A stretch of 48,706 nt of DNA. It comes from a bacterium (GTDB lineage: Bacteria; Actinomycetota; Acidimicrobiia; Spongiisociales; Spongiisociaceae). This document shows positions 25,665 to 37,667 of this stretch, piece by piece. Within the stretch, counting starts at the first letter, position 1; each line of letters begins with the position of its first letter. The notes beneath the pieces are model-generated. The model was not told the DNA's origin. It saw only the letters and a program-made list of their open reading frames with translations, and searched no databases. The translations under genes and the position numbers were made by a program. The stretch covers positions 1-48,706 of the forward strand of contig JAPPHZ010000039.1 in the NCBI GenBank assembly GCA_028820935.1. Direction: 5' to 3'.

Positions 25665-27008
25665 GTGAGCCGTCCGGGTCTGGACGACGGGGAGGCGCCG
25701 GCACGGGCGACTAACCCGTACGGGATGCGGATAGGGGTGATCGGGGCCGGCTACGTCGGTCTGGTACAGGCCGGAGGACTGGTTCGGCTTGGCCATGAAG
25801 TTCGGCTGGGGGAGCGCGATGAGGCCCGACTCGATGCCCTCCGGGCCGGATGGGTTCCCGTCTACGAGCCGGGCCTGGCCGCCCTCCTGTCCGAGGGCCG
25901 GGCTACGGGGCGGCTCAGCTTCCACGCCTCCAACCGGGAGGCGGCGAAGGGCGCGTCGGTGGTTTTCATCGCCCTGCCCACTCCCTCGGACGAGGGCGGA
26001 GCGGTCGACACTTCCATCCTGGACCGCGCCATCGCCGATGTGGCAGCCTCGTTGCGGGCCGGCTCGGTCCTGGTCATCAAGTCCACGGTTCCGGTGGGTA
26101 CGGTCCGGCGGATCTCGCAGATGCCTGCCATCGCGGAACGGGATGTCAGGGTGGTGTCCAATCCCGAGTTCCTCCGGGAAGGCTCGGCGGTCGACGACTT
26201 TCTGGACCCGGACCGGATCGTCATCGGCTCGGCCGACCCCCAGGCAGCGGAAATACTCGCATCAGGTGTGTACGGCGACCTTCCGGGAGAGCGGGTCGTG
26301 GTCGATCCCGCCTCGGCGGAGATGATCAAGTACGCCGCCAACGCCTATCTGGCGACCCGGGTCAGCTTCGTGAACTCGATCGCCAACCTGTGCGAGGAGG
26401 TAGGCGCCGACGCGGCTGCCGTGCTCCGGGGAATGGGCCGCGACCACCGGATCGGCCCCCACTACCTCGCCCCGGGACCCGGTTACGGAGGATCCTGCCT
26501 GCCGAAGGACACGCGGGCGCTGGGGGCGATGGCAGCACGGCACGGGTACGACTTCCGGTTGCTCCGGGCTGTGATGGAGGTCAACGACGAGCAGAGGCGG
26601 CGGATCGTAGGCAAGGTGGCGTCCGCCGTGGGTGGGACGTTGTCCGGCGCCACGGTGGGTCTGTGGGGTCTGGCGTTCAAGGCGGGGACGGACGACGTCA
26701 GGGAGTCGCCGGCTGCCGATCTCGCCCTGAGGCTGACCGCGGCAGGCGCCGCCGTCCGTGCCTACGACCCGCGTGCCTCTCTGTCGATGACGGGGATGGA
26801 ACTGGTGGCGGATCCCCTGGCGGCGGCGAAGGGGGCCGATGTCTTGCTGGTGGCGACCGAGTGGCCCCAGTTCCTGGAGGTCGACCCGGTAGCCGTCAAG
26901 GAGGTGATGCGGGGTTCGGTGGTCGTGGATGCCCGCAACCTTCTGGATGCGGAGGCGGTCAGAGCCGCGGGGCTCTCTTATCGGGGCGTGGGTGCGGGCC
27001 GGTCATGA
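25665..27008 (+). CDS. UDP-glucose 6-dehydrogenase family protein
   Basis: 447 residues from a GTG at 25665, chosen because GGAGG (25655-25659) is five bases upstream; an ATG at 25725 lacks a ribosome site. GVIGAGYVGL (about 24-33) binds NAD, VYEPGL and STVPVGT are family landmarks, and the catalytic cysteine is C278 in GYGGSCLPKD. The enzyme oxidises UDP-glucose to UDP-glucuronate in two steps; UDP-ManNAc dehydrogenase is the close alternative. The stop overlaps the epimerase start (ATGA), so the product is likely passed to that enzyme. Confidence 0.92.
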   Translation: MSRPGLDDGEAPARATNPYGMRIGVIGAGYVGLVQAGGLVRLGHEVRLGERDEARLDALRAGWVPVYEPGLAALLSEGRATGRLSFHASNREAAKGASVVFIALPTPSDEGGAVDTSILDRAIADVAASLRAGSVLVIKSTVPVGTVRRISQMPAIAERDVRVVSNPEFLREGSAVDDFLDPDRIVIGSADPQAAEILASGVYGDLPGERVVVDPASAEMIKYAANAYLATRVSFVNSIANLCEEVGADAAAVLRGMGRDHRIGPHYLAPGPGYGGSCLPKDTRALGAMAARHGYDFRLLRAVMEVNDEQRRRIVGKVASAVGGTLSGATVGLWGLAFKAGTDDVRESPAADLALRLTAAGAAVRAYDPRASLSMTGMELVADPLAAAKGADVLLVATEWPQFLEVDPVAVKEVMRGSVVVDARNLLDAEAVRAAGLSYRGVGAGRS

Positions 27009-27964
27009 TCTGGACCCGGGATCCCACCCGAGGGCGAGCCCTCGTAACCGGGGGTGCGGGCTTTCTTGGATCGAGCCTGGTCTACCGCCTGATCTCCGAT
27101 GGCTGGTCGATCCTGGTGGTGGATGACCTTTCGTCAGGCCGCCTGTCCCGCCTGGCCGACGCCCGCCGGTTCGGAAAGGTGAGCATCCACCAGATGGACA
27201 TCCGCTCCGAGCACCTGGCGGCCGCGGTCGCCAAGTTCGCTCCCGACCGGATCTTCCATCTGGCCGCCCAGACGTCGGTGGCGGTGTCCGTGGCCGATCC
27301 CGGCCTGGATGCGGACATCAATATCTCCGGTACCCTCAACCTGCTGGAGGCGGCTCGGTTGGCCGGCATGCCGCGCCTGGTGTTCGTCTCCACCGGGGGC
27401 GCCATCTACGGCCCGGAGGCCCCGCTTCCCACACCCGAGGACACGCCCAAGTTTCCGGCGTCGCCCTACGGCCTCTCCAAGCTGGTGGCCGAGCAATACC
27501 TGGACCTGTGGAAGCGGATTCGAGGGCTGGACCACGCGGTCGTCCGTCCGGCCAACGTCTACGGGCCGCGGCAGGACTCCTCGGGTGAGGGTGGGGTAGT
27601 GGCGATCTTCGCCAGGGCCTGCATGGACAGGACCCGCCCGACCATCTTCGGAACCGGCGATGACACCAGGGACTACGTGTTTGTCGAGGACGTGGTGGAT
27701 GCGCTGGTGCTGGCAGGGGACAAGGGAGGGGGAGGTGTCTACAACATCGGAACCGGCGTGGAGACCAGCACCCTGGAGGTATTCAGGGCGGTGGCTCGAC
27801 AAGCCCGCTTCGGTGGCGGAGCGAACCACGGACCCCCGCGGGCCGGAGACGTTCCCCGTTCCGCCCTCGAGTGCAGCCGGGCACGCAGAGAGCTGGACTG
27901 GAGACCCCGAACCTCCTTCGAGGAGGGCATCGAGGCCACCGTCTCCTGGTTTGCCACGAATTAG
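27005..27964 (+). CDS. NAD-dependent sugar-nucleotide epimerase/dehydratase
   Basis: 319 residues, an extended SDR. It has TGGAGFLG (about 15-22) for NAD binding, FHLAAQTSV, the catalytic Ser/Thr in VSTGGAIYG, and YGLSK (Y-x3-K). RPANVYGPRQ is typical of UDP-glucose or UDP-glucuronate 4-epimerases. Being coupled to UDP-glucose dehydrogenase, it probably acts on UDP-glucuronate (4-epimerase or decarboxylase). Its TAG stop codon lies inside the first unit of a 7-bp repeat array, which is unusual. Confidence 0.88.
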   Translation: MIWTRDPTRGRALVTGGAGFLGSSLVYRLISDGWSILVVDDLSSGRLSRLADARRFGKVSIHQMDIRSEHLAAAVAKFAPDRIFHLAAQTSVAVSVADPGLDADINISGTLNLLEAARLAGMPRLVFVSTGGAIYGPEAPLPTPEDTPKFPASPYGLSKLVAEQYLDLWKRIRGLDHAVVRPANVYGPRQDSSGEGGVVAIFARACMDRTRPTIFGTGDDTRDYVFVEDVVDALVLAGDKGGGGVYNIGTGVETSTLEVFRAVARQARFGGGANHGPPRAGDVPRSALECSRARRELDWRPRTSFEEGIEATVSWFATN

Positions 27965-27987
27965 TTGTTAGGTACTAGTTGCTAGTT
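27960..27987 (+). repeat. Heptad array A (4 x NNTAGTT), overlapping the epimerase stop
   Basis: Four consecutive 7-bp units: ATTAGTT, GTTAGGT, ACTAGTT, GCTAGTT. The TAG of the first unit is the stop codon of the epimerase gene. The tract is AT-rich in a GC-rich chromosome and continues into a further AT-rich 40 bases before the cofE stop. The units match those of the two arrays near 36.7-37.0 kb. Confidence 0.75.
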
Positions 27988-28031
27988 GCCAAATAATGTT
28001 ATACGACACTGACCACTGACCGGAGCGTGTG

Positions 28032-28733
28032 CTAGCGGAACATGTCCTGGCCGGGGTCCCGCACCAGGTCGGCGCTCGATCCCTCACCCGCCGGGTAATC
28101 CGCTCCCCGGATGATGGCGGCGGGGATGCCCTTGGCCTTGCCCATCACCAGGTCGGCTGCCGCGGCCAACTCGTCCGCCAGCGCCACTTCAGTCACTTCG
28201 AGGGTGTTGCCGTAGGTGTCGGTCGTTCCCCGGTAGTCCACCACGGCGGGAATGCCGGCGACGCCGATCGCCACATCGGTGAGGCCGTGACGCCACGCCC
28301 TTCCGAACGTGTCGGTGATGATCACCCCGACCGTCACCCCGAGGGCCTGCCGGAGACGGGCACGGATCCGCCGGGCTGACCTGTCCGGAGCGATGGGGAG
28401 GAGTACCGCCGAGCCGGGGCGCACGTTGGACTTGTCGACCCCGGCGTTGGCGCACACGAACCCGTGATGCGTCTCGGTGATCACCAGTTCGTCGCGGCGC
28501 CGGAGGATGGCCGACGCCTCCCGTTCGATCAGCCGGAGGCGGGCCTCCGGGTCGTCGCCGATGTCCTCGATACGACCCTCGGCCTTCGAGACCAGCTTGT
28601 GCGTGACCACCAGCACGTCCCCGTCCGCAGGTTCCAGCCGGGACGCCGCCAGTCCTCCGATGAGCAGCCCGGCTACGTCATCACCGGGCTCGGCCTCGGG
28701 AATGCCCTCCACGGGGATGATCGAGATGCTCAT
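28032..28733 (-). CDS. cofE: Coenzyme F420-0:L-glutamate ligase
   Basis: 233 residues, single-domain form like archaeal CofE and the N-terminal part of mycobacterial FbiB. Motifs include the early DVLVVTHKLVSKAEGR, ETHHGFVCANAGVDKSN and ITDTFGRAWRHGLTDVAIG, all characteristic of the family. The enzyme adds gamma-linked glutamates to F420-0 with GTP. Its start overlaps the cofD stop by four bases, so the two form an operon. No nitroreductase-like second domain is present, so FMN-dependent reduction of dehydro-F420 must be encoded elsewhere. Confidence 0.93.
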   Translation of the reverse strand: MSISIIPVEGIPEAEPGDDVAGLLIGGLAASRLEPADGDVLVVTHKLVSKAEGRIEDIGDDPEARLRLIEREASAILRRRDELVITETHHGFVCANAGVDKSNVRPGSAVLLPIAPDRSARRIRARLRQALGVTVGVIITDTFGRAWRHGLTDVAIGVAGIPAVVDYRGTTDTYGNTLEVTEVALADELAAAADLVMGKAKGIPAAIIRGADYPAGEGSSADLVRDPGQDMFR

Positions 28734-29665
28734 GTATCGAGTCCCAGCAGGCCGATCATCCGCCGGGCCAACCCGATCGCCTGTTCCACCCCCGCGATGC
28801 GGGTGGGTCCGGCATGGACCGACAACCCCGAGCGGGAGAGGGCGGGCACGTCGGCCTGGTCGGCACTGTCGATGAAGAAGTCCTGTATCAGGCCCGGATA
28901 GGCCGCCGCCACCCCGGCGTTCCCCGGCGGGAATCCCAGCGAGGTCAACACGCGGTCGGCCGGTCCCTTGAGCGCCCGGCCTCCGAACAGCGGGCTGACC
29001 GCCATCACCCGGCGGGCTCCTCTTACCGCGGCCGCGATCTCCCGGACCGCCAGGATGGGCCAGACGGACAGGGGAGGGTTGGAGGGTGCGATGACCACCG
29101 CGTCGGCGCCTGCGATCGCCTCGACGACGCCGGGGGCGGGCCGGGCCGTGGACTCGCCGACGAACCTCACCTCGGTGACCTCGTCGCGGTGGCCGCGCAG
29201 CACGAAGTACTCCTGGAACGCCATCCAGTGGCCCGGGCCGGTCAGCACCTCGGTCCGGAGCCGGTCGTCAGTGGCGGGGATGACCGTCGAGCGCACTCCC
29301 ATCATTCCCGCCAGGTCGGCCGTGATGGCGTGGAGCGGATCGCCGTCCCGAAGCCGCAGCGTCCGGTAGAGGTTGAGGGCGGCGTCGGCGTCCCCGATCC
29401 GGAAACGGGTGTCGACCCCGAAACGCGCCAGATGGTCCATCAGCACCATGGTGTCACCGGCTCGACCCCAACCGGCGGGTCCTTCCTGCCCGGTCAGCGT
29501 GTAGAGCACCGTGTCTACGTCAGGGGACACCGACCACCCGTAGAACGTGTCGTCATCACCCACATTCACCACCACCGTGGACTCGACATCCTCGAGGTGC
29601 TCGAAGCCCCGGGCCAGCCGGGCGCCCCCGACTCCACCGGACAGGAGCGCGACACGACGGGTCAC
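28730..29665 (-). CDS. cofD: 2-phospho-L-lactate (or phosphoenolpyruvate) transferase
   Basis: 311 residues from a GTG at 29665, where homology starts (VTRRVALLSGGVGGARLARG). The open frame extends 24 codons upstream into the promoter region of the divergent gene and was not used. LSGGVGGARL, NVGDDDTFYGW and APSNPPLSVWPIL are hallmarks of CofD/FbiA, which joins the phospho-acid from its guanosine-diphosphate-activated form to Fo. It is followed directly by cofE. In actinobacteria the donor is often derived from phosphoenolpyruvate; the sequence does not settle this. Confidence 0.93.
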   Translation of the reverse strand: MTRRVALLSGGVGGARLARGFEHLEDVESTVVVNVGDDDTFYGWSVSPDVDTVLYTLTGQEGPAGWGRAGDTMVLMDHLARFGVDTRFRIGDADAALNLYRTLRLRDGDPLHAITADLAGMMGVRSTVIPATDDRLRTEVLTGPGHWMAFQEYFVLRGHRDEVTEVRFVGESTARPAPGVVEAIAGADAVVIAPSNPPLSVWPILAVREIAAAVRGARRVMAVSPLFGGRALKGPADRVLTSLGFPPGNAGVAAAYPGLIQDFFIDSADQADVPALSRSGLSVHAGPTRIAGVEQAIGLARRMIGLLGLDT

Positions 29666-29690
29666 AGGCCCGGGGTCGGGGTGGCGGTTA

Positions 29691-29719
29691 TTGTCTTGTG
29701 GCTCGTTCCGTAACACAAT
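29691..29719 (+). promoter_or_regulatory. Candidate promoter of the membrane-glycan operon
   Basis: TTGTCT (29691-29696) and CACAAT (29714-29719) are 17 bases apart, each matching the consensus at four of six positions. The predicted start would fall very close to the ATG at 29729, implying a short or absent leader. Confidence 0.3.
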
Positions 29720-29728
29720 GGGGTTTCC

Positions 29729-32515
29729 ATGACCCAACCCTCTACTCCGTCACCGAAGCCGCGCGTCCTAGCGCTGGTGGTGGCCCGCAGGGGGGACGAG
29801 ATCACCGACGTGCTGGAAAGCATCGAGTCCCAAGTCTACGAGGTCGAGGAGGTGGTGGTCATCGCCGAGCGGCGGCCGGATGTCGCACGAGAGACGGCCG
29901 GGCCCAGGACGGCCCGGCGGCTGTCGGAGGCTCTCGACGCAGTTGACGGTCCGGTGGACTACCTGTGGATGTTGGACTCCCGTACCACCGCCCGACCCGA
30001 CGCCCTGGCCGCGCTGATCGACGCCGCCGAGAGCCTGGAGGCCTCCGTGGTGGGCTCGAAGGTCCTCGACACCGACTATCCCGACCGGCTGCTCTCCGTG
30101 GGCGGGCCCACCGATGTGTTCGGGTTCCCGTCCACGGGCCTGGAGACCGGGGAGATCGATCAGGAGCAGTTCGACGTCATCCGGGACGTGGCCTTCCTGG
30201 AGCCGGCTTCGCTACTCGTCAGGAGGGACCTGGCCGAAGGTCTGGGAGGGTTGGATCACTCCCTGCCGTACCTCTCCTTCGGCCTGGACATCTGCCAGAG
30301 GGCACGGGTGGTGGGCGGACGGGTAGTGGTGACCCCGGGCTCGGAGGTCTTCAGCCGGGCCAGTGGCGCCCAGCGGCCCACAACCTGGCGGGAGCAGGCC
30401 GGGCGGCTTCGGATCATGCTCAAGACGTACTCCGCGGTGACCCTCGCTTGGGCCCTACCCGCCCTGTTCCTGGTGGGTCTGGCTACCTGGCTCTTCCGGC
30501 TCGGGAAAGGCTTCATCACCGGACCGGTGGACTGGGTTCGCACCTGGGCCTGGAACCTGCTCTACCTGCCCTCGACCCTGGCGGCGCGGCAGCGCGCCCC
30601 GACCACTTCCATGGAGTCCGACGCCGAGCTGTTCCGCTTCCAGGTCCGCGGCTCGCTGGAGTTGCGCGAGATCGCGGCCGAACTGGGCGCCCTGCTCGGC
30701 GCCGGCGCCGAGGAGGAGGAGCCGGACGATCGCGCCCCGCCGGCCTTCTGGCAGAGACCGGATGTGATAACGACAGTGCTGGGGGTGGCGCTGGTACTGG
30801 TGTTCACCCGCTCCATCATCGCAGAGGGACTGCCGGCGACCGGATACCTGCTGCCGCTGGCCGAATCGGCCTGGGAAACCCTCCGCGCCTATGCCGGGGG
30901 ATGGCATCCGGGCGGGTTGGGCAGTCCCGAGCCCATGCATCCTTCGATCGGCGCCACCGCCGCCATCCAGCTACTTCTGGGCGGCCGCGGCGGGGCCGCC
31001 GGCATTCTCACGGTGGTCGCGGTCGCGTCGGGTGTGGCCGGCATGGTGGCTCTGATCCGCAGGCTCGGCCTCAGCCGCGGGGCGCGCCTGGTGGCCGGGG
31101 CGGTGTTCGTAGCCGGGTTCCCGGTGCTGTGGCTGGCCGGGGATGGCTACTGGCCCGGCCTCCTGGCGCTCGGCGGGCTCCCCTGGTCGTTGCTCGGGGT
31201 GGTCGGGCCGGACCCGGAGACCGTTCCGGGCTGGACGGGGCGTCTCGCCAGGGTGGGTCTCGCCACCGCCGCCTCGGCCGTCTTCGTCCCGCTTTCGATA
31301 GTGATAACCATGCTGTTCGGGCTGGTTTGGGCGTCAATGGCGCGGCTCATCCGTCCCCTGGTCATCGGCGCGGCCGGGTCGGTGCTCGCTCTCCCCGTGC
31401 TGCTGCCGTGGTTGAGCGGGCGCGGGATAGCGGGGGTGCTGGAGACGGGCGCGCCCTTCCACCCCGATCCATCCTGGTGGGTGGCTGTTCCGGTGCTGGT
31501 GGCGGGCGCTGCGGCCATGGTGGTTGCCCGCGGCCGGCCGCTGTCGGTGGCCGCTACGGGTGCGGTGATCGGATCGGTCGGCTTTCTCGTGGCGCGGGCC
31601 GGCTCTGCGGGCGCGGGCCAGGAAGTCACGGTCGCGGGCCTGATCGCCACGGCTGCCGGAACGGCGCTGGTCGTGGCCGGTGCCCTGGACGCGCCGGCCT
31701 CGCTCGGTATCGACGTCTCGCTGCCGCGGACCGCGACCGCTTACGCGGCCATGGTGGCCGCCATCGTGGTCGGACTGACCTCGCTGGTCGCGGCGCCGGC
31801 CGGCCGCATGGGGCTGCCCGACGACCGGTTCGGCACTCTCGCGTTCGCCTCCAGCCGGGCGGAGGCCCACGGTCCCGACCGGGTGCTGTTGACCGGGCCG
31901 CCGGAAACCCTTCCGGGACAGCATCGGGTGCTTCCGGATGGCACGCCCTACCGCCTTATCGGCGGCGTCCTGGACTATCCACAGGCCTGGCTCCCCGAAG
32001 CCCGCCTGGGAGATGCTGCCCTCGAGGAAACCCTGGTCGGGTTGGTGGCCGGGGAGGAGCTTCGCCCCGGAGAGCTGCTGGCGCGGTTCGGCATCCGCTG
32101 GGTGGCGGTCACAGGTCCCAGCCCGATAGCTGACGCCATGAGCGCGCAGCTGGATATGCGGCCGCTCGCCGGCCTCTTCGTGGGGGACTCCGGCGGGGTG
32201 TGGGAGAACGATGTGCCCGCCTACCGGGCGGTGACCGATGGTGGGGAGGCGTGGTCGTGGACGGCGCCCGACTACGAGGGCCGCCAGGCCGGAGGCTCGG
32301 TCCGGATCGCGGAGAACGCCGACCACCGATGGGGCCCGGGCGCCTGGCAACAGGACGGCTGGGCCAACCGCGTGCCGGCGGAGGCGGGGGTCGCCGCCTT
32401 CGGAGGGGTGGGTTCGTTCCGGTTCCAGGCACGGGCGGCAGGCGTCGTGGTGATCGTGCTGGCGGGCCTGTCGCTGGTGCGGACCAGGCGTGAGGCCGGG
32501 GACCGACCGGTATGA
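29729..32515 (+). CDS. GT2-like domain fused to a large membrane region
   Basis: 928 residues. The first about 230 resemble a family 2 glycosyltransferase (RVLALVVARRGDEITDVLESI at the start, LPYLSFGLDICQRARV near 190). The rest holds many membrane segments with two loops, and an outside-facing part near 700-880. The GT2 nucleotide-binding D-x-D position reads LDSRTTARPDAL, so the second Asp is missing. Similar fusion proteins sit beside cofD in other actinobacteria. It begins a four-gene operon with ATGA-type overlaps. A role in cell-envelope glycan assembly is likely but catalysis is uncertain. Confidence 0.75.
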   Translation: MTQPSTPSPKPRVLALVVARRGDEITDVLESIESQVYEVEEVVVIAERRPDVARETAGPRTARRLSEALDAVDGPVDYLWMLDSRTTARPDALAALIDAAESLEASVVGSKVLDTDYPDRLLSVGGPTDVFGFPSTGLETGEIDQEQFDVIRDVAFLEPASLLVRRDLAEGLGGLDHSLPYLSFGLDICQRARVVGGRVVVTPGSEVFSRASGAQRPTTWREQAGRLRIMLKTYSAVTLAWALPALFLVGLATWLFRLGKGFITGPVDWVRTWAWNLLYLPSTLAARQRAPTTSMESDAELFRFQVRGSLELREIAAELGALLGAGAEEEEPDDRAPPAFWQRPDVITTVLGVALVLVFTRSIIAEGLPATGYLLPLAESAWETLRAYAGGWHPGGLGSPEPMHPSIGATAAIQLLLGGRGGAAGILTVVAVASGVAGMVALIRRLGLSRGARLVAGAVFVAGFPVLWLAGDGYWPGLLALGGLPWSLLGVVGPDPETVPGWTGRLARVGLATAASAVFVPLSIVITMLFGLVWASMARLIRPLVIGAAGSVLALPVLLPWLSGRGIAGVLETGAPFHPDPSWWVAVPVLVAGAAAMVVARGRPLSVAATGAVIGSVGFLVARAGSAGAGQEVTVAGLIATAAGTALVVAGALDAPASLGIDVSLPRTATAYAAMVAAIVVGLTSLVAAPAGRMGLPDDRFGTLAFASSRAEAHGPDRVLLTGPPETLPGQHRVLPDGTPYRLIGGVLDYPQAWLPEARLGDAALEETLVGLVAGEELRPGELLARFGIRWVAVTGPSPIADAMSAQLDMRPLAGLFVGDSGGVWENDVPAYRAVTDGGEAWSWTAPDYEGRQAGGSVRIAENADHRWGPGAWQQDGWANRVPAEAGVAAFGGVGSFRFQARAAGVVVIVLAGLSLVRTRREAGDRPV

Positions 32516-33819
32516 CCCGCATAATCGGCTTGGCCGTGGCCGCCCTCGCCGTCGTGGTGGCGACCATGCAACCGGCCCCCGGGCCGCCGGTACCGGCCGT
32601 GGAGACGACCAACCGTGCAGAGGCGCCGACCGGCAGGGCATCCCACTTCGCCCACTGTCCCTGGTCGCGTTCCGACAGCCTCCGGAGTTCGGCCTACAGC
32701 GTGCTGGGGGAGGGACCGGCGGGCTTCGACCTCTCCTTCCTCGAGGGCGGTTCGGTGGACGACAGGTTGTCGGGCCGGACCGACGCGAACGCGGCGGCCA
32801 GGGTCGAGAACCCGCGTCCGGTCGGCGCCAGCTCCGCGATGGTCGAGTTCTCCGGGAACGTGGGCTCGGTCGGCGTGGTGACCACAGGTGAGAGTCTGCT
32901 GGCGGGTGACCTGTGCTCGGGGAGGATTCCGGACTCCTGGCACTTGCCGGGAGGCTCCACGCTGGAGGGTGAGAGCCTGGTCCTCCGCCTCTTCAACCCC
33001 TTCACCGCCGACGCCCGGGTCGATCTCTGGGCATTCAGCGAGTTGGGCATCGAGGCCGGAGAAGCTCTGGAGGGATTGGCGGTTCCGGCCCGGCGCACGC
33101 GGGTAGTGGCCTTCGAGGAGTTGCTGCCCGGCCGGGAGTCGCTGTCGGTGATAGTCCGCCCGGTCGTGGGTTCGGTCATCCCGGCGATGGTGCTCGACAC
33201 CGGCACGGACGTAGCGGTCTGGCCCGGCTCGGACGCAGGCGACGGATGGGAGTTCCCGGTAGCGGGCGCGGTCGGGCTCCGGAGTGACCTGGTCCTGACC
33301 AACGAGGCCTCCATCCCGGTCAACTTCCTGCTCGAGGCATTCGACGAGTCCGGGGCGCGGTTACCCACCCAGGTGGGCCGTATCGAGGGGCCCGGGCAGG
33401 CGCGGGTGTCTTTGGACGGGTTGAGTTCCTCCGGGTTCGGGGTGCGGGTGACCGGCGACGGACCCTTCGGCGCGGTCATCGTGGCTCGCTCGGAGACCGG
33501 CGTGGCCGCAACCGTCGGGGCTCGGACCACGGCAACCGGATGGCTGGTGCCGGGCCCGGGGGTGGTCGCATCCGGGAGCCGGCTCAGGTTCCTCAACGCC
33601 GGGGTTACCGAGTTGACCGCCACCTACCGCACGCTCACTCCCGAGGGAAGGACCCGTGCCAATGTGATCGGGATTCCCCCCAACTCGGTCCGCACCGTCC
33701 ACATTGCCGCCCCGGAGGTCGCGGGTGTCCGGGTCACCGCCGACGGCCCGCTGACGGTGGGGTGGCTGGCGACCGTGTCCGGCCGGGCGATGTTCTCGGG
33801 GGCGATCCCGAGTGGCTGA
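32512..33819 (+). CDS. DUF5719-like secreted or membrane-anchored protein
   Basis: 435 residues. A hydrophobic segment at 4-20 looks like a signal peptide or anchor. The rest is soluble, rich in Val, Gly and Ser, with beta-strand-like repeats such as LRLFNPFTADARVDLW, DLVLTNEASIPVNFLLEAF and RLRFLNAGVTELTATYR, which suggest tandem immunoglobulin-like folds. Size, neighbours and pattern resemble the DUF5719 proteins that follow the GT2-membrane fusion in actinobacteria; this match is from memory. It overlaps both neighbours, so it is co-translated. The function is unknown. Confidence 0.65.
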   Translation: MTRIIGLAVAALAVVVATMQPAPGPPVPAVETTNRAEAPTGRASHFAHCPWSRSDSLRSSAYSVLGEGPAGFDLSFLEGGSVDDRLSGRTDANAAARVENPRPVGASSAMVEFSGNVGSVGVVTTGESLLAGDLCSGRIPDSWHLPGGSTLEGESLVLRLFNPFTADARVDLWAFSELGIEAGEALEGLAVPARRTRVVAFEELLPGRESLSVIVRPVVGSVIPAMVLDTGTDVAVWPGSDAGDGWEFPVAGAVGLRSDLVLTNEASIPVNFLLEAFDESGARLPTQVGRIEGPGQARVSLDGLSSSGFGVRVTGDGPFGAVIVARSETGVAATVGARTTATGWLVPGPGVVASGSRLRFLNAGVTELTATYRTLTPEGRTRANVIGIPPNSVRTVHIAAPEVAGVRVTADGPLTVGWLATVSGRAMFSGAIPSG

Positions 33820-34192
33820 GGGCTTCGTGGTTCGACTACTGGTGGTCCTGGCGGCGGTGGGAGCGGTGGCAGCGGTGGCCGCTTTCCGTCCGAGACGGCC
33901 CCGGACTCCGCTCTCAGTGGAAGGGAACCTCGACGGCCCCGGCGTCTACCTGTTCACCGCCGCCGGGTGTGATGCATGCGATGAGGCCCGGCTGGTCTAC
34001 AGCAAGGTGCTGGGTGAGTCGGGTTTCATCGAGCGGAGCTGGGAGGAGCATTCCGACCTGCTGGCCCGGGTCGGGGTGGCCGACCTACCGTCGGGCGCGG
34101 TGGTGGGCGCCGACGGTAGGCAAGTGGCCTCGTTCGCACAGGTACCGAAGCCGCCGGCACTCCGGTGGGCGGTCCGGAAGATGAGGGCATGA
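33812..34192 (+). CDS. Membrane-anchored thioredoxin-like protein
   Basis: 126 residues from a GTG at 33812 that overlaps the previous stop by eight bases. One N-terminal membrane segment (about 6-25) is followed by a short basic stretch and a small thioredoxin-like domain with VYLFTAAGCDACDEAR. The C-D-A-C pair stands where thioredoxins have their redox-active CxxC. A conserved cis-proline region (VADLPSGAVV) follows. It may face the outside and serve envelope proteins of the operon. Which side it faces was not resolved. Confidence 0.65.
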   Translation: MAEGFVVRLLVVLAAVGAVAAVAAFRPRRPRTPLSVEGNLDGPGVYLFTAAGCDACDEARLVYSKVLGESGFIERSWEEHSDLLARVGVADLPSGAVVGADGRQVASFAQVPKPPALRWAVRKMRA

Positions 34193-36729
34193 CCGGGATC
34201 GCCGATCCGGCCGGGCCGATCGAAGACGAGGTCGGATCGCAGGGATGGTCCACCCGGACCTCGGCCATCCTGGTGGCCATGGTCTCGCTGGCGACCCTCG
34301 TGGCGGTGGCCCCCCACCTGCTGCTGGTCGCCAACACTCCTACGGGCGGCGACATGGGTGCTCACGTACTCGGCCCCGCCTACCTGCGGGACGTCCTGCT
34401 CCCGTCGGGCCGGATCATGGGCTGGTCGAACCACTGGTTCGCCGGGTTCCCGATCTTCTACTTCTACTTTCCCCTTCCGTCGCTGGTGATCGTGGTCCTC
34501 GACCTGGCGCTCCCCTACGGGGTGGCGTTCAAGACGGTGACGGTCGTGGGGCTGGTGGCGCTTGCACCGGCCACGTATTTCTTCGTCCGGTCGATGGGTT
34601 TCGCCCGTCCGGTTGCCGCGGTCGCCGCGGCGGCGGGAGGCGTCTACGCCTTCATGGAGACCCCCACCCCCAACATCTTCGGCGGCACCATCGCCTCCAG
34701 CCTGGCCGGGGAGTTCTCCTATTCATGGTCGTTCGCCTTCTCCCTGGTCTACCTGGGCTGCCTGCTCAGGGCAGTGCACGACGATCGCAAGTACTTCATG
34801 GGAGCGGCCGCCGCGCTGGCCGGAACGGCTCTCTGCCACGTGATCCCGACCATGGGCGTGGTGTTCGCATCGCTGTTCGTGCTGGTGGGTTCGCTGTTCG
34901 TGGTGGTGGGTCGCTCAGGATGGTGGGAGCGTCTCAGGACCGCCGCCGGCCGGCAGCGAGCGGAGGGGGGTCTGTCCTCGCTGGTCGTGCCGGGAACCTG
35001 GGCGGTGGGTTTCATGCTGGCTGCGTTCTGGGCGTTGCCGCTGGTGATCCGGCTGCGGTACACGACGGAGATGGACTGGCAGCCCTTGGCGGGATTCGAC
35101 GAACTGGTTCCGGTGGAACTGTGGCCGGTGGCCATTCTGGGCGTGATCGGGTTGGTGGTCGCGTTGCGGAGGACCGGGCGGGCCCTGGCGCCGGCTGCCC
35201 TGACGCTGGTGCCGATCCCGGCTTTCTTCCTGCTCGGCCAGGGAGCCAAGCTGTGGAACGGCCGTGCCCTTCCGCACTGGTTCTACGGTCTGCACCTATT
35301 CGCCGGCATCGCAGTCGGTCTGCTGGCGGTGGCGGCCTGCCGCCGGCTCCCGGAGCGAACGCCCACCTGGTGGATACAGACCGGGATCGTGGCCGCCGTC
35401 CTGGTGCTGGTGTTCGGGGCCGCCATCGGGCAACCTGTCTGGGACCTCGAGAACCCGGCCGGTTGGGTCGGGACGTTGCGACTGGAGCCGCTGGTCGAGC
35501 GGATCTCTGGTCCCGACATGCTGGTGGGGGCCGCGGGGGTCCTCCTGCTGTGGCTGGTGGGACGGCGGGCGCCGCCCGCCACCCGGACGGTCCTTCCGGT
35601 CCTGGCGTCCGTGGCGATCACGGGAGTCATCTTCGTGGGCGTGGTCACCGAGGAGAACTACGTGGGCGCCTGGGCGCGCTGGAACTACCTCGGCTACGAG
35701 GGTAAGGCGACCTGGCCCGAGTACGAGGGTGTGATGTCGGCAGTCGGCGACCTGCCGCCTGGCCGGGTCCAATGGGAGGCCAACAGCGAGCTCAACAAGT
35801 ACGGGACGCCCATGGCGCCGATGCTGTTCCCCTACTGGACCGAGGGCACCCACCCCTCGATGGAAGGCCTCTACTTCGAGTCCTCGGTCACTACCCCCTT
35901 CCATTTCCTGAACGCGTCCGAGTTGAGCAGTTCCCCCTCCAACCCGATTCCCGGGCTGGCCTACCACAACCGGGACATCGACCGGGGCGCCGTGCACATG
36001 GGCCTCTTCAACGTGTCCTACTACGTGGCGTACACCGACACGGCCAAGGACAGGGCCGACCGGCATCAGGACTTCACCTTCGTGGCGGACTCGCCCCCGT
36101 TCCGAATCTACTCGCTTCCCGAAAGCTCGCTGGTGGAAGCGGCGGTCAACCAGCCCTGGGTGTTCGAGGAGTCCGGCTCGGGGCTCCTCAACTCCCTCGT
36201 GACCACCTTCACCGACGACACCGATCCGCACTTCGTGGACGTGGCCCTCGATTGGTACGAGGACATATCCCTCGTGGACCAGTGGATCGTGGCGGACGGT
36301 CCCGGGCACTGGGAGCGGATCACTCCCGAGCTGGAGGGCGCCACCGTCCCGATCGTCACCGACTCGGGGGTCGAGGTCTCCGATGTGGTGCTGGAGGACC
36401 ACCGCGTGGCGTTCACGACCACCGGCGTGGGGACTCCCCACCTGATCAAGGTCTCCTACTTCCCCAACTGGACGGCCTACGGTGCGGAGGGCCCGTGGCG
36501 GGCCACCCCGGCCTTCATGGTGGTGGTGCCGACCGATCGCGAGGTCGAACTGCGCTTCGAGAACACCTGGGTGGAGATAGTGGGGCTGGGTTTGACCCTC
36601 GCCGGTGCGGTCATGCTGGCCATCTGGCTGGTCGCTCTCGTACGCCGGCGGATGGTTCCCGCCTCGCCTACGCCCGAAGGACTCCGCGACCCCGCCCTGC
36701 GGGGCACCGGCCGATCCGGATACGGCTGA
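34189..36729 (+). CDS. Large polytopic membrane protein, GT-C / PTPS-related membrane-domain type
   Basis: 846 residues from the ATG at 34189, which overlaps the upstream stop (ATGA). About a dozen membrane segments are followed by an outside domain (about 500-800) and a last membrane segment. The first loop reads NTPTGGDMGAHV, then NHWFAGFPIFYFYFPLPSL. This D...WFAGFP pattern occurs in the membrane proteins annotated as 6-pyruvoyl-tetrahydropterin synthase-related or YfhO-like, thought to be GT-C glycosyltransferases. It completes the four-gene glycan operon. Donor and acceptor are unknown. Confidence 0.7.
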   Translation: MTGIADPAGPIEDEVGSQGWSTRTSAILVAMVSLATLVAVAPHLLLVANTPTGGDMGAHVLGPAYLRDVLLPSGRIMGWSNHWFAGFPIFYFYFPLPSLVIVVLDLALPYGVAFKTVTVVGLVALAPATYFFVRSMGFARPVAAVAAAAGGVYAFMETPTPNIFGGTIASSLAGEFSYSWSFAFSLVYLGCLLRAVHDDRKYFMGAAAALAGTALCHVIPTMGVVFASLFVLVGSLFVVVGRSGWWERLRTAAGRQRAEGGLSSLVVPGTWAVGFMLAAFWALPLVIRLRYTTEMDWQPLAGFDELVPVELWPVAILGVIGLVVALRRTGRALAPAALTLVPIPAFFLLGQGAKLWNGRALPHWFYGLHLFAGIAVGLLAVAACRRLPERTPTWWIQTGIVAAVLVLVFGAAIGQPVWDLENPAGWVGTLRLEPLVERISGPDMLVGAAGVLLLWLVGRRAPPATRTVLPVLASVAITGVIFVGVVTEENYVGAWARWNYLGYEGKATWPEYEGVMSAVGDLPPGRVQWEANSELNKYGTPMAPMLFPYWTEGTHPSMEGLYFESSVTTPFHFLNASELSSSPSNPIPGLAYHNRDIDRGAVHMGLFNVSYYVAYTDTAKDRADRHQDFTFVADSPPFRIYSLPESSLVEAAVNQPWVFEESGSGLLNSLVTTFTDDTDPHFVDVALDWYEDISLVDQWIVADGPGHWERITPELEGATVPIVTDSGVEVSDVVLEDHRVAFTTTGVGTPHLIKVSYFPNWTAYGAEGPWRATPAFMVVVPTDREVELRFENTWVEIVGLGLTLAGAVMLAIWLVALVRRRMVPASPTPEGLRDPALRGTGRSGYG

Positions 36730-36965
36730 TGACTGGTTCCTAGTCCCTAGTTGGTAGTTGCTAGTTTAATTGTTAGTTATTAGTTCCTAGCTGTTAGTCA
36801 TTGTGTGCGTATCAGTCGAGGTTGCCGCTGTTACCCCCCGCTTGCTCGTTTCGAGTGTCTCGCCTCAGCGCGATATGAAGCGCCGGCAGCTCAGGAACAC
36901 TGGAACGGTCTAATCTAAGACAAACTATCGGAAATAACTAGTGACTAGCAACTATCGACTAGGAA
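36730..36965. other. Convergent intergenic element framed by inverted heptad arrays
   Basis: The gap between the membrane protein (plus) and the GT2 gene (minus). Two arrays of TAGTT-type heptads lie at its ends in opposite orientation and enclose about 136 bp (36800-36935) without a recognisable gene. The centre has ordinary composition on its left side and becomes AT-rich towards the right array. Confidence 0.6.
36739..36799 (+). repeat. Heptad array B (8 x NNTAGTY)
   Basis: Units in order: CCTAGTC, CCTAGTT, GGTAGTT, GCTAGTT, then TAATT as a 5-base interruption, GTTAGTT, ATTAGTT, CCTAGCT, GTTAGTC. It starts ten bases after the TGA of the membrane-protein gene and runs in the sense direction of that gene. 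Confidence 0.78.
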
Positions 36966-36970
36966 CTAAT
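36936..36970 (-). repeat. Heptad array C (5 x NNTAGTY), overlapping the GT2 stop
   Basis: Read on the minus strand the units are ATTAGTT, CCTAGTC, GATAGTT, GCTAGTC, ACTAGTT. The TAG of the first unit is the stop codon of the GT2 gene, exactly as in array A. The run CC-GA-GC of the leading dinucleotides parallels CC-GG-GC in array B, and 18 of 21 bases agree there. Confidence 0.78.
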
Positions 36971-37667
36971 CATCCAGGCTGCGGCGCAGCGCGATCAGTC
37001 CCCGGAGGGTGCGCGGGACCCGGCGGAGTAGCGAGGAGCGGGCTTCCCTCATCTCCTCCACGGTGATCGGAACCTCGATGATGCGGTGCCCGGCTCGCTC
37101 GGCCCGTAGCACCAGCTCGGTGTCGAACAGATCCTTGGTCAGGCGCACTCGCGGGAGGAGCGCCTGGACCACCGGCGCGTGGAGCGCCTTGATGCCGTGG
37201 GTGTCGCTCAGCCCGGATCCGACCACGGCCCGCAGCGCCAGGTTGAACACCCGGGTGGCCAGGCGGCGTATCCACGGTCGCCGGTCCCGGGAACCGGGGT
37301 CGCGCTTCGAGGCGATCACCACATCGGCCGAACCGTCGAGCTCCGCGACCCTTCTCAGGAATTCTTCGGAGTGGTAGTCGATGTCGAACACCACCAGCCA
37401 TCCCAGGTCCCCGGCCGATTCCATCCCGGTGCGGATGGCGAGCCCGTAGTCGGCGCCGTCGATCTGTATCACGTCCAGGCGGGGATCGGAGGCCGCTTCG
37501 GACAACGCTTCGGCATGGGTGGCGTCGGTCGATCCGTTCTCGACCAGGATGATCCGGTACCGGGGCGTCACTGCCTCCACCTGGCGTCGGATCCGGGCCA
37601 GGGCGGGCCCCATGAAGCCGGCCTCGTTGTGGACCGGGATGATGATGGTGATCTGCGGTGCGGTCAT
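36966..37667 (-). CDS. Family 2 glycosyltransferase (polyprenyl/dolichyl-phosphate mannose synthase-like)
   Basis: 233 residues from the ATG at 37667 (a GTG at 37676 is possible). TIIIPVHNEAGF starts the GT-A fold, VENGSTDAT binds the nucleotide, and FDIDYH carries the D-x-D metal site (about 114-119). There is no C-terminal membrane domain, as in short DPM1-type enzymes that charge a polyprenyl phosphate with a sugar for GT-C enzymes. Several GT-C-like proteins are encoded close by, so this could supply their donor. The stop codon is part of heptad array C. Confidence 0.85.
   Translation of the reverse strand: MTAPQITIIIPVHNEAGFMGPALARIRRQVEAVTPRYRIILVENGSTDATHAEALSEAASDPRLDVIQIDGADYGLAIRTGMESAGDLGWLVVFDIDYHSEEFLRRVAELDGSADVVIASKRDPGSRDRRPWIRRLATRVFNLALRAVVGSGLSDTHGIKALHAPVVQALLPRVRLTKDLFDTELVLRAERAGHRIIEVPITVEEMREARSSLLRRVPRTLRGLIALRRSLDD

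Follow-up and report, generated by a model that had tools for sequence, protein, structure and literature searches.

What are tandem 7-bp units built around TAG doing at the 3' ends of bacterial genes, and how did they come to be there? The window, meaning the whole stretch of 48,706 nucleotides that was analysed, raises this question with three such arrays. The draft genome to which it belongs as contig C39 (G000) has 3.30 Mb in 51 contigs. The public matches closest to one window gene are mostly Acidimicrobiia MAGs, and sponges are the usual source of such bins.

Arrays and flanking genes in the window

A first-pass annotation had described three NNTAGT[TC] arrays of four, eight and five heptads, each in the sense orientation of the gene it follows, and had recognised the gene's own stop codon in the first unit of two of them. 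When the sequence was re-read, all three arrays proved to be real and in sense, and arrays 1 and 3 are the two that begin on a stop; the heptad description has to be amended for array 2, which contains a register slip and one TAGC unit.

Array 1 (27962-27989, forward strand; TAGTTGT, TAGGTAC, TAGTTGC, TAGTTGC) follows gene A (27005-27964, forward), presumably sugar epimerase-like, whose TAG stop at 27962-27964 is unit 1 of the array. The ORF of gene A spans 25850-27964, and our gene caller puts its start at 27005. Array 1 is the 5' arm of what we call a type I element: it continues (27990-28021, forward) into a linker, AATGTTATACGA at 27995-28006, and a second arm of two CACTGAC units at 28007-28021, a continuation overlooked before. 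The right border of this element is the TAG stop (28032-28034, within CTAG) of the convergent gene D (28032-28733, reverse).

Gene B (34189-36729, forward) ends with TGA at 36727-36729, and array 2 (36741-36801, forward) starts 11 nt behind it. Its 4 + 4 heptads are TAGTCCC, TAGTTGG, TAGTTGC and TAGTTTA before the slip and TAGTTAT, TAGTTCC, TAGCTGT and TAGTCAT after it; the period is broken once, with 12 nt between the TAG at 36762 and that at 36774, and TAGC occurs in one of the eight units. Array 3 (36934-36968, reverse; five heptads, TAGTTCC, TAGTCGA, TAGTTGC, TAGTCAC, TAGTTAT) follows gene C (36966-37667, reverse), which we take to be glycosyltransferase-like and whose TAG stop at 36966-36968 is the first TAG of the array. 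Likewise overlooked was that arrays 2 and 3 are the inverted left and right arms of one insertion of ~243 bp (36730-36972). The outer 16-mer TGAYTRGTTCCTAGTC lies at both sides (36730-36745, forward, and 36957-36972, reverse), GATGA beyond the heptads is also common to both sides, and a loop (36802-36933, forward) separates the arms. With terminal inverted repeats, no ORF and dispersed copies, the element has the hallmarks of a MITE. Relatives of 178-229 bp and 69-79% identity occur at other sites in the same genome and in G002, G003, G006, G007 and G008, and the loop has four matches in its own genome (itself included), five in G006, three in G003, one in G004 and none in six other genomes.

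At the site between genes B and C the element is present in G000 only and missing in all eight informative congeners (G009 is not informative). Seven of these have 14-19 bp instead and G005 has another sequence of 171 bp; the element replaces 10-14 bp of the empty site. The stop codon of gene B is TAG in seven of the eight congeners and TGA in G001. With arrays 2 and 3 forming opposite ends of a single small insertion, a tolerated passenger at stop signals is likelier than a backup stop device.

Abundance, period 7 and stop codons

That the arrays belong to a genome-wide family was borne out by a scan of the own 3.3-Mb genome, in which TAGTNNNTAGTNNNTAGT has 274 matches and the reversed-pattern control none. 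Among the 59 genomes searched (own included), 18 contain the pattern. Eight of nine congeners carry 3 (G005) to 221 matches and the ninth, G009, has none; outside the genus it occurs in two of five others of the family (both g2) and in seven of the order's 44 remaining genomes. Matches to the reversed pattern number 2 in G002, 1 in G004, 30 versus 111 forward in G010, and 185 versus 15 forward in G027. Several congeners look identical to the public loci L031-L039, and each was counted once.

Finer counts come from an 800-kb sample of G000, window included, with 699 genes from our own caller rather than from annotation (87% coding; stops 416 TGA, 219 TAG and 50 TAA). Densities in this sample and in the stretches from G006, G010 and G027 are biased high because they come from contigs with listed matches. 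Arrays with three or more TAGT units number 39 in the sample, none of them wholly within a called gene. At lag 7 there are 30 repeat regions, all intergenic, versus 0-6 regions at lags 4-6 and 8-11, 12 at lag 12 (two intergenic), 2 at lag 13 and 24 at lag 14, which is twice 7. Tandem 7-bp intergenic units with a period-7 excess characterise the heptameric SSR/STRR class and are seen here as well; TAGTTGC makes up 16 of the 21 exact intergenic period-7 arrays. Apart from its own seeds and weak matches, a seed HMM from 13 array tails detected a single new site, C15:16675. Contigs C15, C21 and C25 of G000 end inside TAGTTGC arrays, so the true array number is probably underestimated. Chance or base composition as the origin is ruled out by the forward and reversed scans (274 versus 0) and by the dominance of lag 7. 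The arrays also recur in independent assemblies, at the array-1 site of G001 (L227) and of G003 (L236, apparently the same sequence as public L039), which rules out an assembly artefact.

Period 7 extends beyond the genus. In stretches selected around TAGT matches, lag 7 gives 46 regions in G010 (another genus) versus at most 7 for lags 5, 6, 8, 9 and 10, and 27 in G027 (another family) versus at most 2 for the same lags. TAGTTGA, TAGTGGA, CTTGTGG, TGAATGG and TAGTCGT are some of the many units there. Each of the two genomes has numerous distinct heptad units (L166-L185 in G010, L186-L191 in G027), and one TGAATGG array of G010 (L173:12444) begins on a TGA stop.

The bias to gene 3' ends and to sense orientation, which the first-pass annotation had read from three arrays, is found throughout the sample. 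Sense orientation applies to 31 of the 38 arrays that have an upstream gene, and the stop codon lies inside the array in 25 of 39; the upstream distance of 1112 for the array at C11:28370 is false, as the caller missed a gene, and arrays at contig ends are bordered by a gene on one side only. An array merely running into a gene would place the stop in units 1, 2 and 3 a third of the time each. The observed numbers are 20, 4 and 1 (P 2.3e-6 for unit 1 versus the expected 1/3), and elsewhere 12/1/1 (G006), 7/1/1 (G010) and 3/0/0 (G027). Conversely, an array of at least three units starts at 17 of 226 TAG stops versus 12 of 1703 other intergenic TAGs (odds ratio 11.5, P 1e-9), which makes a TAG stop ~11 times likelier to be an array start. 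The corresponding counts are 8/39 versus 7/502 in G006 and, with a weaker preference, 4/100 versus 15/1185 in G010 (P 0.054). The stop triplet is repeated at +7 in 38 of 699 genes, versus 2-8 at other offsets from 3 to 13, and further out 30 times at +14, 12 at +15 and 10 at +18. Whenever the recurrence at 7 is double (22 cases), the triplet is TAG, although TGA is the commoner stop. Anchored arrays show no preference for CTAG (13/81 CTAG stops versus 11/89 other TAG stops, P 0.52), and heptads give no sign of requiring CTAG, a C before TAG being without effect. As to the stops themselves, TAG accounts for 93 of 186 convergent and 127 of 500 codirectional ends in the sample.

Could such anchoring serve translation? 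A period of 7 puts TAG in every frame and might catch read-through, as the first-pass annotation proposed. Sense orientation, the start on a stop and the TAG retained in the units (the last partly by construction) are consistent with an all-frame stop device. However, array-less genes almost lack all-frame backup stops (within 21 nt, 1% of 130 TAG, 0% of 191 TGA and 0% of 29 TAA genes), heptad arms and units without sense stops exist (CAGTGGY-type second arms and sister arrays, and some G010 units, e.g. CTTGTGG), and the elements are dispersed. Stops in frame +1 follow 14% of TAG genes versus 4% of TGA genes, at a GC content of 0.63 versus 0.70. The function is not supported, given that period 7 persists in another genus and family with other, partly stop-free units, and we consider it very improbable. 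Tandem TAGs behind genes need not be translation signals.

Composite elements, RNA folding and orthologous sites

Read by eye, many of the 31 array-bearing intergenic regions have a second arm, joined by a linker and made either of inverted TAGT units or of the CACTGAC type. Linkers are shared by unrelated loci. Seven of the eight sample matches to TATGTTRGAT + CACTGACCAC directly follow a TAGT array and the eighth lies in a gene, the chance level being 1-3 matches in simulated sequence. With up to three mismatches, the linker TATGTTRGATNNCACTGACCAC has 38 matches in nine of the ten genus genomes and none in the reversed controls or in G009, the genome without arrays; the window matches the genus linker pattern at 27995-28016 with 3 mismatches. 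The end motif TGAYTRGTTNCTAGTY has 35 exact matches in eight of the ten genomes and 0 in controls. Two inward-facing ends lie close together only in the window among these 35, no inward-facing pair surrounds a gene, and an autonomous parent element was not found among them. Type I elements are dispersed, yet their arms are mostly no more complementary than shuffles.

The last point touches on the possibility that the arms are selected as a 3'-end RNA hairpin, either a bidirectional terminator or an mRNA-stabilising stem between convergent genes. Array-bearing 3' ends have a mean fold z of -1.64 (n 27), versus -0.40 for convergent (60 of 109) and -0.62 for codirectional (60 of 244) control ends. 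As RNA, 36727-36975 of the window folds with -93.7 kcal/mol (z -6.2), and an element on C15 reaches z -2.75. Pairing with downstream DNA exceeds that of shuffles at P<0.05 in 11 of 28 arms, a count in which both sides of one pair are not independent and to which true inverted TAGT pairs contribute most. Where a TAG stop has at least 30 bp behind it, anchored arrays occur at 16 of 76 convergent versus 8 of 94 codirectional stops (P 0.026). A cross-species duplex test on inserts of at least 30 nt, unrelated long inserts included, gave own-arm duplexes that are on average stronger at six of six sites, and at one site a GC hairpin plus T-run is found in G009, which is array-free. On the other hand, 17 of 28 arms lack excess pairing relative to shuffles, and window array 1 with its downstream part folds no better than shuffles (z +0.10). 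The own-partner ranks in the duplex test are mixed and arm lengths differ, which leaves compensatory pairing across species weak. There is no U-run, canonical terminators (GC hairpin plus T-run) occur at none of the 27 array 3' ends, and the corresponding site is empty in some relatives (G006 at A/D and s17517, G005 at s13973). Canonical terminators are rare everywhere sampled (8/380 in G000, 2/22 in G009), too few for a trade-off between arrays and terminators to be seen. A lack of Rho as the reason for hairpins was rejected, Rho scoring above the cut-off in eight of ten genomes and as a fragment in two. Folding thus lends weak support to a hairpin or mRNA 3'-end function, and selection for such a structure seems a doubtful explanation of the arrays.

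At orthologous sites (those with a missing flank were omitted) copies come, change and vanish quickly, and stop codons mostly stay. The site between genes A and D has heptad elements in G000, G001 and G003, only AATTAGCCGCTAGCGG in G006, CAGTGGY-type arms between TGA stops in G002, and other sequences in G005 and G008; the G004 and G007 contigs end nearby. C30 site 2 has heptad inverted repeats of differing units and lengths in G001, G004, G006 and G008, other inverted repeats in G002 and G005, a short remnant in G003 and G007, and the aforementioned GC hairpin and T-run in G009. At s17517, several kinds of insert lie between a TAG stop and TAGTAAC in G000 and seven congeners, one of them common to G000 and G007 with a 14-bp length difference; G006 has no insert and G009 differs. 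One element at s13973 is common to G000 and six congeners, again with 14-bp differences; G005 lacks it, and G008 and G009 differ. The perfect eight-unit array at c22558 occurs in G000 only, the left flanks in G003 and G007 being 95% identical yet without an array.

Some of these observations fit growth in place, in which a TAG stop would seed a 7-bp duplication, slippage would lengthen it and template switching at the quasi-palindrome would copy it to the other side; arrays would persist at gene ends, since inside coding DNA they are destructive. The constant period with changing units, the 14-bp steps at orthologous sites and the eight-unit array at c22558 agree with this, as do the missing target duplication and the GATGA outside the heptads on both sides of the window element, which an inverted duplication predicts. 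Against it stand the linkers and ends common to unrelated loci, the relatives of the window element at other sites, and the prevalence of TAGTTGC alone among the exact arrays in place of many stop-context units. Growth in place is possible, and we hold it as a tentative alternative.

Origin of the elements and comparison with known heptads

The reading that we favour, giving it about an even chance, is a genus-wide set of small, non-autonomous, MITE- or REP-like dispersed elements that have heptad arms, are anchored on TAG stops and change in length by slippage. Each would consist of a 5' arm [TAGTYNY]n, mostly TAGTTGC, a short linker or a loop of ~130 bp, and a second arm that is either the inverted 5'-arm unit or [CACTGAC]m. 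Its first TAG is often the very TAG that ends the preceding gene; the reading frame is then closed unchanged, and we propose that the copy is tolerated for this reason. Two convergent genes could each keep TAG at the two ends of one element, and the arms, once placed, would change fast, with slippage adding or removing 7-bp units. A trans-acting recombinase or transposase preferring TA or TAG probably spreads the elements, which presumably have no host function. The earlier suggestion of a repeat spreading by slippage therefore survives in part: the 14-bp steps between relatives fit it, but the shared linkers and ends and the lineage-specific insertion need dispersal or copying as well.

This dispersal reading draws mainly on the analogy with a separate MITE with ends GTGGTCTGTCTGCG, which is 161-165 bp long with some copies of 68-69 bp. 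TA precedes 23 of its 35 near-exact ends, and CTA 18. Seven near-exact ends, or eight when looser ends are included, sit exactly on a TAG stop (G000 sample: C29 94913 and 282956-283118; C18 18516, 44984 and 72495; C10 29775; C3 13920); away from such places the copies are tandem or nested. As this MITE indicates, insertion targeting TA can yield the geometry seen at TAG stops: an element starting with G that inserts into the TA of TAG would rebuild the stop, and the heptad elements show this geometry too. Another dispersed intergenic repeat of ~100 bp, with ends GAGGGTRCTGAAAA...TTTTCAGTACCCTC, lies at C29 12838, 26931, 62599, 87508, 219485 and 318340 of G000.

Searches for two transposase families as movers found neither: PF13358 (IS630-type) and PF01797 (Y1/RAYT) were each found in none of the ten draft genomes, the Y1 search being positive in five of 14 named control genomes. 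By eye, filled and empty sites at B/C, A/D, s17517 and s13973 show no clean target-site duplication. An unlikely variant goes further and supposes mobile elements for which TAG stops are safe places to land and whose arms an enzyme copies in fixed 7-nt steps. The elements would begin with bases that rebuild TAG, leaving the protein unchanged. If so, the 7-nt step would be an enzymatic constant rather than a property of the sequence, the period staying the same and the letters differing across two or more families of one order.

How do these elements compare with known systems? REP/BIME, RUP and Correia elements are small dispersed inverted repeats, non-coding and located in 3' intergenic DNA. 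The elements described here differ from REP/BIME and other MITEs in that their arms are heptad arrays, in the lack of Y1/RAYT in all ten genomes and in that no target duplication was seen. STRR heptamers of cyanobacteria, reportedly described by Mazel in 1990, are also heptad arrays, and TAGTCAT units occur in both; the likeness noticed in the first-pass annotation is real. The annotated feoB stop of plasmid A of Trichormus variabilis is a TAG of a TAGTCAT array (L223 40692-40694; NC_007410 190692-190694). Over 300 kb of the plasmid, period 7 ranks first with 12 regions, followed by lag 11 with 5. The stop recurs at +7 in six of 196 genes of this stretch, like other offsets, and stop anchoring across phyla was not found there.

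Heptads at stop codons are already known from Xanthomonas and Nostoc, and stop-rich heptads from Beggiatoaceae. According to Rehm et al. (2015; PMC4692102), Xanthomonas and Nostoc PCC 7120 have intergenic GGGAATC and GGGGAYT heptameric repeats close to stops; some overlap the stop, and some form inverted pairs (70 and 75 in two Xanthomonas genomes). The same study places transcript starts and stops more often at quadruplex-forming heptad repeats and mentions three Calothrix heptanucleotides. The arrays described here share the 7-bp units, the intergenic position and the sense placement near or over a stop. The Xanthomonas and Nostoc units are G-rich and quadruplex-forming, whereas TAGTYNY has no G-runs, none of our TAGT units containing the three or more consecutive Gs of GGGAATC; here, the first unit lies exactly on the TAG stop, linkers are shared, and empty and filled sites are found across species. 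MacGregor (2015; PMC4679880) treats direct repeats of the heptad TAACTGA in Beggiatoaceae, cyanobacteria and Bacteroidetes, notes that they have stops in all three frames, and relays an earlier suggestion that DNA polymerase is in contact with 7 nt. A Thiomargarita genome paper (PMC4853749) appears to be related. The TAACTGA repeats are likewise stop-rich heptads, but they mostly lie immediately before start codons, one case being inverted, whereas ours lie downstream of stops and have second arms.

Heptameric repeats beside stops have thus been seen in unrelated bacteria, and why 7 and why there have no settled explanation. Literature searches found nothing on intergenic tandem repeats in sponge Acidimicrobiia, and as far as they show, the exact TAG anchoring, the composite dispersed element and the multi-species series of empty and filled sites in Acidimicrobiia are new. 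In this genus, up to ten species can be compared for presence or absence at matching gene ends, with exact anchoring on TAG, so that insertion can be weighed against growth as the origin, and step size and cost can be tested too.
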